64,000 nt of DNA, taken from assembly GCF_006517175.1 (NCBI RefSeq), contig NZ_CP041186.1, positions 7,874,501 to 7,938,500 on the forward strand. The letters run 5' to 3'. This document shows positions 56,686-64,000 of this stretch, piece after piece (the stretch's first letter is position 1; every line of letters starts with the position of its first letter). Made by a program: the position numbers and the translations under genes. This DNA is from Persicimonas caeni. GTDB taxonomy: Bacteria; Myxococcota_A; Bradymonadia; Bradymonadales; Bradymonadaceae. Under the pieces are notes generated by a model. It was not told the DNA's origin. It was given only the letters and a program-made list of their open reading frames with translations, and did no database searches.

Positions 56686-59919
<3,234 letters not shown>

Positions 59920-60018: not shown

Positions 60019-60028
60019 CCCCCGCCCG

Positions 60029-60452
60029 CACACCTCTTTGTCCACCTCGCATCACACATTTTCGCGCCGCACACGCCTTTGCTCGCCTCGCATCACACAT
60101 TTTCGCGCCGCACACCTCTTTGTCCGCCTCGCATCACACATTTTCGCGCCGCACACGCCTTTGTCCGCCTCGCATCACACATTTTCGCGCCGCACACCTC
60201 TTTGTCCGCCTCGCATGCCCGTCGTAGATTCTGCACTCCCCTTTGTTCGCCGCGCACGAGCGTCGTAGATTCTGCACTCCCCTTTGTACGCCGCGCACCG
60301 GCGTTGTAGATTCTGCACTCCCCTTTGTACGCCGCGCACCGGCGTTGTAGATTCCGCGCGACCCGATGTCCGCCGCGCACCGGCTTCGTAGATTCTGCAC
60401 TCCCCTTTGTACGCCGCGCACCGGCTTCGTAGATTCCGCGCGACCCCATGCG
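60029..60452. repeat. 41-bp tandem repeat array, about ten units
   Basis: Ten consecutive units of exactly 41 bases (starts 60029, 60070, 60111, 60152, 60193, 60234, 60275, 60316, 60357, 60398) and a partial eleventh. Units 1-5 carry CACACATTTTCGCGCCG, with CACACCTC and CACACGCC alternating as an 82-bp higher-order pattern. Units 6-10 carry GTAGATTCTGCACTCCC and later TTCCGCGCGACC. The common core CTTTGTNCGCC runs through both sets. The unit is not a multiple of three, so all six frames are mixed and no protein is likely. It lacks unique spacers, so it is not CRISPR. Confidence 0.9.
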
Positions 60453-60775: not shown

Positions 60776-60780
60776 GCCCT

Positions 60781-60934
60781 CTATTGAGGTAATTAGCATT
60801 GAAGGGCGGACGATTCGCGGCGTTTGCGCGAAACAACGCAGACAGGCAATAGCCACGTGGCTGATCTGCACGCCCACCGCCACACGCACACGCAACGTAT
60901 CGTCCGCCCTTCAATCGTAATTCCACCTCAATAG
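60781..60934. mobile_element. MITE-like element with 34-36 bp terminal inverted repeats
   Basis: 154 bp bounded by CTATTGAGGT (60781-60790) and ACCTCAATAG (60925-60934). After 7 or 9 unpaired bases comes a second perfect 17-bp pair, ATTGAAGGGCGGACGAT (60798-60814) with its complement at 60899-60915. The 84-bp middle has no open frame. The form suits a non-autonomous mobile element; no clear target duplication is seen and no matching transposase is in the window. Confidence 0.65.
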
Positions 60935-60964
60935 CCGGCGTGAACCCACTGCAAGACGTTCAAT

Positions 60965-61834
60965 CTACGCCGCCGCCGTCGAAATCCCCACCCGGGGATA
61001 TTCGATGCCGTGCTCCCGAAACGCCCGCTTGACCCTTGCGGTCACATCCGTCTCGAAGGCCTTCTCGTAGCGCACGTCGATGACATACGCCTTGCACTGG
61101 ATGATCGTCGAGAAGGCCATGCCGGTGACGTCGTCCTTCATGGTGATGGTGACCGGCTTGTTCAGGTAGACGTATTTGGAGGTGACGCACGCCTCGTAGA
61201 TGATGCGGCGGGCCAGGTCGAAGTCCTCGTCCATCGAGATGTAGAACTTGATGACGATCATCATGTCGAGCGCGCCGGAGTTTCCGGAGGTGACCGCCTC
61301 GGTCAAGAACTTGTTGTTGGGGATGCTGACTTCGCTGTCGTCGAGGGTCTGGATGCGCACCGAGCGCAGCCCGATCTCGGTAACCTCGCCGTAGGTGTCG
61401 CCGAAGGTGACCCGGTCGCCGACCTGGAAGGGTTGGTCGACGAGGATGAGGATGCCGGCCATGACACTCGAGGCGGTGTCTTTGAGGGCAAAGCCAATGG
61501 TCACCGCCAGCGTGCCGCCCAGACCCAGGAGCGCGGTTTTGTCCTCCTCGGCGTCGAAGAAGGTCATCACGAGCATGTACAGCGCGATGGCGAAGATGGC
61601 CACGCGTGAGAAGCTCGCGACCTTCTTGAGCATCAGGCGGCGCTTGGCGTTGCCCTCGCCCATCTTCTCGAGGGTGGCCTGCAACACCCGGCTTGCGACC
61701 ACCGCCGCGCCGATGATGGCCAGCGCCCAGATGATCTTTTCGAACTCGAACAGGTCGGCCTTCTGGGCCAGCTCGGCCACGGTCTCGGCGTCGGCCTGGG
61801 CGACGAGCGGGATGTGATGGAGGAGGTGGAGCAT
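60965..61834 (-). CDS. MscS-family channel paired with membrane AAA ATPase
   Basis: 289 residues from the ATG at 61834, two bases after the stop of the ATPase gene. Helices near residues 34-52 and 72-92, then the pore segment TALLGLGGTLAVTIGFALKD (about 99-120) and the beta domain ILVDQPFQVGDRVTFGDTYGEVTEIG, LRSVRIQTLDD and IPNNKFL. It is a standard small MscS, without the regulatory extensions of MscK. The frame is open upstream inside the ATPase gene but that part is not MscS-like. Tight coupling to the ATPase suggests the two work together; how is unknown. Confidence 0.92.
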   Translation of the reverse strand: MLHLLHHIPLVAQADAETVAELAQKADLFEFEKIIWALAIIGAAVVASRVLQATLEKMGEGNAKRRLMLKKVASFSRVAIFAIALYMLVMTFFDAEEDKTALLGLGGTLAVTIGFALKDTASSVMAGILILVDQPFQVGDRVTFGDTYGEVTEIGLRSVRIQTLDDSEVSIPNNKFLTEAVTSGNSGALDMMIVIKFYISMDEDFDLARRIIYEACVTSKYVYLNKPVTITMKDDVTGMAFSTIIQCKAYVIDVRYEKAFETDVTARVKRAFREHGIEYPRVGISTAAA

Positions 61835-61836
61835 GA

Positions 61837-64000
61837 TCAATCCCACAAGAAGTTGGAGGCGCTGAGCTTCTTGACGACCTGGCGGAAATACAGCGGGCTG
61901 AGGTAGGCGCGCCGGCCCGACGGGTCGAGCTCGACGATCTCGCGCTCTTCGAAGTAGTTGAGGGCCATCTCGCAAAAGGCGCGGTCCGAGTTGATGATCT
62001 CGGCGATCTCACCGGCGTCGAGCGCCCCGTGCTGGGCGATGGCGGCCAGGGCGAACAGGTAGTCGTCGCTCAACTGCTGGACCGGCTGCATCGACGGCTT
62101 GCGGAACAGGCTCACCTGCATGTCGCCGTCGGCGTTGGGCTTGACGCTTCGCTTCCAGAAGCGCAGCGCCACCATCGGGTTGCCGCCGCTGAACTCGTGC
62201 AGCAGGCGGAAGTAGCCGTTGGCCGTCTTGATGATCTCGTAGAAGTCGTGGTCGCCCTCTTCGTGAGCCACCACCAGGTCGGTGAAGCTGATATTGCGCC
62301 CGGCGAGCGCGTTTCGGCGCTGGACGAGGTCCTGGATCTCGCGCTCGTTCCAGGGGCGAAGCTCCAAGATCTGGCCGAAATAGTGTTTTCGGGGGCGCAC
62401 CCGGTTGATGTAGTTCCAGGCGTATTTGTTGAACGTGAGCACCCAGTAGTGGATGTCGTCGGTCAGGTTGACGACCTCCAAGAAGGTGTCCAGGCCGGCG
62501 AAGCCGCCGATTTCGCGCACGAAGAAGTGGTGGCAGTCGTCGATGAGCAGCACGCGCGGCTCGAGCTCGCGAAGCGCTTCGACGAGCTCGACGCGCGACT
62601 CGGGGACCTCGTCGAGCTCGAAGAGGTCGGCCAGAAAGCCGAGCACGCCGTCGTCGACGACCTTCGAGGCGAGCGAGGTGTACTTGCGCGTCAGGTCGGG
62701 GAACTCCTTGGCGAAGGCGCGCGAGACGTCGTTGAGCAGGCTCGTCTTGCCCATGCCCTGCTCGGCGCTGATGGCGAGCGAGCCCTGCGGGCGCCCGTCG
62801 CGCAAAAAGGCGCGCGCGTCGGCGACCACGTACTCGAGCTGGTCCTGGCGGATGACCTTGTAGTTCTCGTCGTCGAGCGGGCGCTGCTCGAAATAGGCAG
62901 CGTAGTCGTCGGGCAGCGGCTCGCTCGTCGTGCTCGTGTCGACCTCTTCGCCGCTTCGCTCCTTTTGCTGCATCTCGATGCGCTTTCGGAACACGAAGTT
63001 GCTCACCCGCTTGCTCCACTCGGTGTCGCTGGCGTGGGTGCGGGCGAATTGGCCGATCTCGCGAAACGCCACGTAGATAAAGGCCACGGCGATGACGAGC
63101 ACGCCGTAAAAGCGGTCCTTGTGGTTTTTGACGAACTCGACCGAGCGCGGCAACCGGTCTTCGGCCAGGCGCACGAACAGGGCGGCGATATCGTCCTTCC
63201 AGGTCGACAGGACCATGTAGACGACGATGGCCAGGCCCCACACGAAGAAGGTCTTGACCAGCCAACTGATGACCGAGTGGCCCACCAATTCGGTGACCGC
63301 GCGGGGCACGTAGTGCTCGAGCAGCCAGAAGACCAGAATGATGCGCACGCTGCGCACGAGCTTCTGGGCGCGGGTGATCTCGATGGTGATGACGTCGACC
63401 GCCGACAGGGACTGACGCCCGTCGCTGGCGCCAATCTGGACCAGGTCGGGCGCCGGAGAGCGGCCGGCCTGCTCGCGGTAGCGCCGGGGCAGCACCATGA
63501 CCTTGACCAGCGTCATGACCACCCAGAACAAGAAGAAGGCGTCGACCGCCCAGCCCAAAAAGACCAGCTCGCCGAAGGCGTCGGCCACGTAGGCGACCAG
63601 CTTGTCGATGACCAGGTAGAGGACCACCGGGCGGATGATCGAGCGCAAGACCTCGGCGGCCTTGATGGTCACCCGCGCGTAGCGTTGGAAGAAGCGGCGT
63701 CGAAGCGCCCAGCCGGTCAGCTTGCGGATGAGCGGATCGGTGTAGTGCTGCGAGACGTAGATGACCCCGCCCAGGAGCAAAAACCAGCCGAGCAGCCCCA
63801 AGATCCAGCCCCACAGCTCCACCGAGGTCAGCCGGGTGGGAAGCTCGAGGGCCTGCTGCAGGCGCATTTCGGCGATATCGACGCTGCGCTCCAGCGCCTG
63901 AAGCACGCCAAACCAGGCGCTCTGCCAGTTCTCGTCGCTGAAGATGGAGTAGAACTTGTCGCGCTGCGCGTCGCTGATTCTGGGGAGCAGCCGCTCGATC
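61837..64000 (-). CDS. Membrane-anchored AAA/STAND-like ATPase, 5' end outside window
   Basis: 720 residues visible; the frame stays open to the window edge and the residues before the first GTG look coding (RISDAQRDKFYSIFSDENW), so the start lies outside. The first half has several hydrophobic helices (LWGWILGLLGWFLLLGGVIY; VVLYLVIDKLVAYVADAFG; FFLFWVVMTLVKVMVLP; SWLVKTFFVWGLAIVVYMVL; VLVIAVAFIYVAF). The cytoplasmic half has Walker A SAEQGMGKTS (about 62745-62770), Walker B RVLLIDDCHHFF (about 62521-62560) and a sensor-like VLTFNKYAWN, then a winged-helix-like C-terminus. No known family is certain. An MscS channel gene follows after two bases. Confidence 0.82.
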   Translation of the reverse strand, partial: IERLLPRISDAQRDKFYSIFSDENWQSAWFGVLQALERSVDIAEMRLQQALELPTRLTSVELWGWILGLLGWFLLLGGVIYVSQHYTDPLIRKLTGWALRRRFFQRYARVTIKAAEVLRSIIRPVVLYLVIDKLVAYVADAFGELVFLGWAVDAFFLFWVVMTLVKVMVLPRRYREQAGRSPAPDLVQIGASDGRQSLSAVDVITIEITRAQKLVRSVRIILVFWLLEHYVPRAVTELVGHSVISWLVKTFFVWGLAIVVYMVLSTWKDDIAALFVRLAEDRLPRSVEFVKNHKDRFYGVLVIAVAFIYVAFREIGQFARTHASDTEWSKRVSNFVFRKRIEMQQKERSGEEVDTSTTSEPLPDDYAAYFEQRPLDDENYKVIRQDQLEYVVADARAFLRDGRPQGSLAISAEQGMGKTSLLNDVSRAFAKEFPDLTRKYTSLASKVVDDGVLGFLADLFELDEVPESRVELVEALRELEPRVLLIDDCHHFFVREIGGFAGLDTFLEVVNLTDDIHYWVLTFNKYAWNYINRVRPRKHYFGQILELRPWNEREIQDLVQRRNALAGRNISFTDLVVAHEEGDHDFYEIIKTANGYFRLLHEFSGGNPMVALRFWKRSVKPNADGDMQVSLFRKPSMQPVQQLSDDYLFALAAIAQHGALDAGEIAEIINSDRAFCEMALNYFEEREIVELDPSGRRAYLSPLYFRQVVKKLSASNFLWD

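Follow-up and report, generated by a model that had tools for sequence, protein, structure and literature searches.

In the 64,000-nucleotide stretch of Persicimonas caeni DNA analysed here (the window, i.e. positions 7874501-7938500 of an 8.05-Mb genome that forms a single contig), a large membrane ATPase gene is followed directly by a gene for an MscS-family protein, and this pairing is conserved far beyond chance. We regard a functional pairing of the two proteins as very likely; most probably they form a complex in which the ATPase regulates the MscS and which serves ion/turgor or envelope control. To the specific reading, i.e. that the two form one functional unit in which a dedicated ATPase subunit controls the opening of an MscS-type channel in a nucleotide-dependent manner, we assign a probability of about 0.5. 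Its basis, as seen in the analysis, is the gene structure, the adjacency of the genes, the reciprocal exclusivity of the partners, their correlated divergence, the clade-specific residues of the channel and the fold of the ATPase. Further support comes from a second architecture, in which the AAA+ module is joined to a Na+/H+-exchanger domain and is again paired with an MscS protein.

The copy of the pair in the window is chromosomal and has the following features (window coordinates):
61837-64000, minus strand: ATPase gene, of which the 3' 720 codons lie in the window
63817-64000, minus strand: end of the exported coiled-coil region of the ATPase (residues about 31-485), long helices following the signal segment; the remainder lies beyond the window
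63046-63816, minus strand: membrane domain of the ATPase (residues 486-742) with six hydrophobic segments, from hydropathy of the protein and its alignment and from AF2 helices
62089-62964, minus strand: AAA+ domain of the ATPase (about residues 770-1061), from the AF2 model and PDB matches
62740-62757, minus strand: Walker A motif GMGKTS (residues 839-844), from the sequence motif
62521-62550, minus strand: Walker B region LLIDDCHHFF (residues 908-917), from the sequence motif
61840-62088, minus strand: winged-helix domain of the ATPase (about residues 1062-1144), from AF2 secondary structure and a sub-threshold MarR_2 match
60965-61834, minus strand: MscS-family gene (289 aa), from a PF00924 match

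The ATPase reading frame ends with a stop codon at 61837-61839 and is open to the window edge. The original prediction had called for completion of the 5' end, and the flanking DNA supplied it, giving a full reading frame of 1144 aa (L005:2338-5772) that extends to window-equivalent position 65271. The junction of the two genes reads TGA-tc-ATG, so the MscS start codon does lie two bases past the ATPase stop, as had been predicted.

The ATPase consists of a signal segment, a long coiled coil, six hydrophobic segments, an AAA+ domain and a winged helix. Hydropathy of the protein and its alignment placed the signal segment at residues 12-31 and the hydrophobic segments between residues 486 and 742, in agreement with the prediction of about five or more membrane helices. 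However, if all six segments spanned the membrane, the AAA+ domain would, given the exported N-terminus, end up outside the cell; the number of membrane-spanning helices must therefore be odd, with one hydrophobic segment misread or non-spanning. An AF2 model of the 375 C-terminal residues (mean pLDDT 83, pTM 0.83) contains an AAA+ domain plus a winged helix, which bears out the winged-helix-like end of the original prediction, and both Walker motifs that it had named were located and are intact. The top PDB matches of this model were ORC/Cdc6 AAA+ ATPases (Foldseek E=2.2e-9; Z=16.3 and rmsd 3.8 over 248 aligned residues), with TnsC, RuvB and the NLR/Apaf-1 STAND proteins close behind; the Cdc6, TnsC and NLR chains score near one another, and sequence identity is low at about 15%. 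The Pfam families AAA_16 and AAA_22 fell below their cut-offs in the window ATPase, AAA_22 being passed by its paralogue in the same genome and by the relatives from Alphaproteobacteria. An MscS-independent family that accounts for the ATPase had been named as evidence that would count against a new system, and no known family of this kind explains the protein.

A Pfam search found no PF00999 exchanger domain in the window ATPase and no match to its coil and membrane region. When this region was compared by hhalign with MscK, MscS and the exchanger there was no profile similarity (probabilities 0.2-1.9%), and an MscK-like origin of the large protein was rejected on this ground. A full-length AF2 model was made for one relative (L049) and was of modest quality (pTM 0.42); among the PDB matches listed for it, which are filled by the AAA+ ATPase domain, there was no match to the coil and membrane region and no chain of MscK or another channel.

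The window MscS matches PF00924 with 74.6 bits against a cut-off of 20.2 (E=6.6e-21), and a profile of the paired MscS proteins (A7) gives a whole-length match to solved MscS chains, over positions 26-273 with E about 1e-23. The protein is thus assigned by sequence to the MscS superfamily and is a predicted channel. The host genome has 11 MscS genes. In the MscS tree the paired proteins form one clade with a support of 0.97, which excludes all seven unpaired MscS proteins of the host genome as well as E. coli MscS and MscK; among the paired proteins, only the second MscS of the Caulobacter locus is placed just outside it. The MscS proteins of the window type and of the haloarchaeal type share near-fixed residues, among them R66, Q137, V138, R141, Y148, N185, G187, L189, S219, Y221, P227, Y250, D253 and E257, which are absent or rare in a comparison set of nine unpaired MscS. 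The topology used to place them is that of established MscS structures. On alignment to E. coli MscS they lie mostly in the cytoplasmic TM1-TM2 loop, the beta domain and the alpha/beta domain, and this may be the region where a cytoplasmic AAA+ partner would bind. In the exchanger-fused type the signature is only partly present.

An MscS reading frame lay immediately downstream on the same strand in 97 of the 101 informative non-redundant ATPase loci. The gap between the genes was mostly -4 to +24 bases, the commonest value being a -4 overlap. In the four non-adjacent cases the locus reached a contig end (L031), the MscS gene lay 2.1 or 3.5 kb further on (L039 and L108, both with a displaced MscS that belongs to the paired clade) or no MscS was found (L134). 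Four further haloarchaeal loci and the locus of Novosphingobium sp. PP1Y, which are not included in these counts, also show the linkage. The converse search gave the same picture: the A7 profile had 33 matches at E<=1e-50 across 112 genomes of the phylum, and comparison of their positions with the ATPase search placed 32 of them next to an ATPase gene and the remaining one (in G122) 3.5 kb away, so that no orphan member of the paired branch was seen among these matches. Since there are only 11 MscS genes in the 8-Mb genome, chance adjacency would be expected for a few genes in a thousand. The original prediction of a coupled ATPase-MscS system, which had proposed a search for conserved pairs in other genomes and had named separation of the genes in most relatives as the contrary outcome, is strongly supported by this linkage in both directions; the pair is not separate, and it stays together while the other flanking genes change. 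Identities of the ATPase domain and of the MscS were correlated between loci (Mantel r=0.75 for 102 pairs and 0.81 within the window type, p=0.001), a correlation that reflects joint inheritance rather than contact because shared ancestry contributes to it. No fused ATPase-MscS reading frame was present among the loci examined.

Homologues of the ATPase were found in 31 of the 57 relatives searched, the close relatives of the locus including Lujinxingia vulgaris and a Lujinxingiaceae MAG. A profile search of the phylum detected the ATPase in 99 of 282 genomes, i.e. in 77 of 187 genera and in 29 families; it scored two candidates per genome, so that copy numbers are lower bounds. The spread outside the phylum is likewise a lower bound, the pattern scan of genome contigs having used alignment A2 and reached few loci. 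The host genome itself has a second copy, in which the gene for a 903-aa ATPase precedes two MscS genes, the nearer one starting four bases past its stop. Two consecutive MscS genes after one ATPase were noted at L006:8879-10605 and L037:6707-8550, and mixed channels are possible at such loci.

Three architectures were observed. Type A, the form in the window, has about 1100 aa and comprises a signal peptide, coiled coil, TM region, AAA+ domain and winged helix; pairs resembling it occur on plasmids of Alphaproteobacteria (Novosphingobium pentaromativorans US6-1, Novosphingobium sp. PP1Y and Caulobacter sp. NIBR2454). Type B has about 1550 aa and joins a Na+/H+-exchanger domain (PF00999, E=5e-22 and 2e-16) through a long middle region to the AAA+/winged-helix module, and the MscS gene again follows. 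In 14 type B loci an extra membrane protein of roughly 450 aa with no Pfam match is encoded directly upstream (e.g. L039:3529-4908), and in the four tested hhalign showed it to be distantly related to the exchanger (probability 97%, E=4.7e-11). The minimal type, found in haloarchaea (L059, L060, L155-L158; 5 of the 146 genomes of one order), is a soluble ATPase of roughly 290-330 aa whose gene overlaps or abuts the MscS gene. A reading of the haloarchaeal matches as Orc1/Cdc6 initiators was rejected, as the loci show a soluble ATPase with an overlapping MscS gene.

The active site is conserved less well than the pairing. Of 108 ATPases, 87 retain the Walker A lysine and 18, including all haloarchaeal members, have arginine instead; the second acid of Walker B remains in only 63 of the 108. 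Hydrolysis therefore cannot be needed in every member, and ATP binding is apparently kept more widely than hydrolysis. That the pairing with MscS outlasts the loss of catalytic residues suggests a nucleotide-responsive or structural regulatory subunit rather than a motor. The haloarchaeal ATPases, in which the lysine-to-arginine change is found throughout and a DDCHHLY-type motif is partly kept, may represent an ATP-binding form or a pseudo-ATPase form.

MscS channels are textbook valves opened by membrane tension alone (or, in MscK, together with potassium). We infer for the paired proteins a physical complex, a gating role of the ATPase and the direction of control. In such a unit, the ATPase would sense the state of the envelope or membrane with its exported coiled coil and membrane helices, its cytoplasmic AAA+/winged-helix part would dock onto the MscS oligomer from the cytoplasmic side, and its nucleotide state would set the timing of channel opening or recovery. 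Solute release would then no longer be the work of a purely tension-driven valve but a step of turgor, ion or envelope homeostasis under active control, and in the exchanger-fused form the same ATPase could co-ordinate cation/proton exchange with channel opening. The general form of this proposal, i.e. that bacteria and archaea possess nucleotide-controlled MscS complexes in which an ORC/STAND-like ATPase gates the channel and is mounted on an envelope sensor, on a cation exchanger or on neither, is one to which we would give just short of an even chance.

In several genomes of the bradymonad class, one of which belongs to another family, a TPR gene and a Mla-type lipid-transport cluster stand back to back with the type A pair. 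At the locus studied here the divergent TPR gene lies just past the window end (L005:5932-12194), together with a Mla-type cluster that is duplicated and comprises two MlaE permeases, ATPases and MlaD. A gene for ribosomal protein L3 is found downstream at some loci, and a universal stress protein gene directly follows three of the haloarchaeal pairs (L156, L157 and L158; one confirmed by Pfam). Nothing in these surroundings points to defence.

Could the genes be neighbours that are inherited together with no functional tie? The partly conserved flanks in the bradymonad class, i.e. the Mla cluster, would fit this, but the pair is retained across several phyla and two domains even though its other neighbours differ, the association holds from either partner, and two distinct ATPase architectures both keep it; mere gene order is in practice refuted. 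An immune function, in which a STAND-like sensor opens the channel upon phage attack and so causes abortive infection, might be considered given that the fold is near STAND/NLR proteins as well as ORC/Cdc6 and that some copies are plasmid-borne. However, PADLOC gave only weak coiled-coil or P-loop matches, a motif scan of viral contigs yielded no relative, and the context is one of Mla lipid transport, TPR proteins and, in some genomes, ribosomal protein L3; moreover, the divergence of the partners is correlated, one architecture has a cation exchanger and variable recognition repeats were not seen. We consider this very unlikely, and the suggestion in the original prediction that the ATPase senses phage or damage is unsupported: PADLOC matched nothing meaningful, the viral contigs scanned had no relative, and the genes around the pair are of a housekeeping kind.

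The two other alternatives accept the pairing and assign the ATPase a different task. It could be an assembly, insertion or recycling chaperone of this MscS branch that builds, remodels or extracts the oligomer and has no part in gating: AAA+ domains are often at work in protein remodelling, and overlapping genes with the ATPase in first place would be apt for an assembly factor, as would an obligate pairing with a single MscS branch. Against this, other MscS proteins have no need of such a factor, the repeated loss of catalytic residues while the pairing persists fits a remodelling motor poorly, and such a task would explain neither the exported coiled coil nor the exchanger fusion, so that we think a chaperone role unlikely. 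Alternatively, the ATPase could act in signalling in the reverse direction, detecting the opening of the MscS or the tension of the membrane and relaying this inwards, e.g. via its winged helix, since a C-terminal winged helix and an ORC/Cdc6-like fold are typical of nucleic-acid-binding or switch proteins. Type A is membrane-anchored, however, and no conserved target gene adjoins the pair; in STAND/ORC proteins, winged helices also serve just as commonly as protein-protein modules. Such a reporter role is in our estimation distinctly improbable.

The MscS, AAA+ and exchanger parts are each known. As in the MscS family (PF00924), the paired channel has a three-TM MscS fold with beta and alpha/beta domains, and its profile spans nearly all of the solved heptameric MscS structures, but it forms a clade of its own that nearly always occurs with the ATPase and has about 20% identity to E. 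coli MscS. MscK and MscM likewise combine an MscS channel with additional TM helices and an exported region rich in coiled coil, all within a single functional unit; there, however, the exported domain and the channel are one polypeptide, whereas here they are encoded by two genes, the large protein ends in an AAA+ ATPase and its N-terminal and TM region is not homologous. MscK also requires a second signal, potassium, according to PMC9653487. With ORC/Cdc6, TnsC and the STAND AAA+ proteins the ATPase shares an AAA+ core, a C-terminal winged helix and, in the window protein, intact Walker A and B motifs, but it is membrane-anchored and tied to a channel, and its relatives often have degenerate Walker motifs. 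The CPA-type cation/proton exchangers (PF00999) share their domain with type B, where it is fused to the AAA+/winged-helix module, but not with the window's own ATPase.

To our knowledge, no near-obligate ATPase-MscS unit has been described. In keeping with the original prediction, which knew of no system with this pairing, none was found in Pfam, NCBIfam, PADLOC or open-access PMC papers (subscription literature being outside this scope), and within these libraries and papers the unit appears to be new. If our reading is correct, nucleotide state or signalling actively governs part of the MscS superfamily, the way in which cells decide on opening an MscS channel becomes testable, and widespread proteins annotated only as 'ATP-binding protein' gain a function. 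A channel branch that is nearly always accompanied by an AAA+/STAND-like ATPase, in two domains of life and three architectures, is also a natural experiment on when an AAA+ domain may lose catalysis yet remain useful.

Downstream of the MscS gene the window contains two kinds of repeat:
about 60780-60940: palindromic element of about 160 bp
60026-60436: 41-bp tandem repeats in two adjoining arrays (4.7 and 6 copies)

The original prediction had taken a repeat-rich flank as fitting an accessory module. The repeats are real, but the palindrome is a MITE-like dispersed repeat with about 75 full and partial matches on both strands of the genome and therefore marks no mobile module. With the palindrome dispersed and the window copy chromosomal, the reading as a mobile or accessory module was rejected; plasmid copies of the pair exist elsewhere. 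One palindrome copy lies about 1 kb from a type B MscS gene (G000:C1:2225165). Further downstream of the pair, and unrelated to it, positions 56686-59919 encode a secreted beta-propeller-like protein of 1077 aa.
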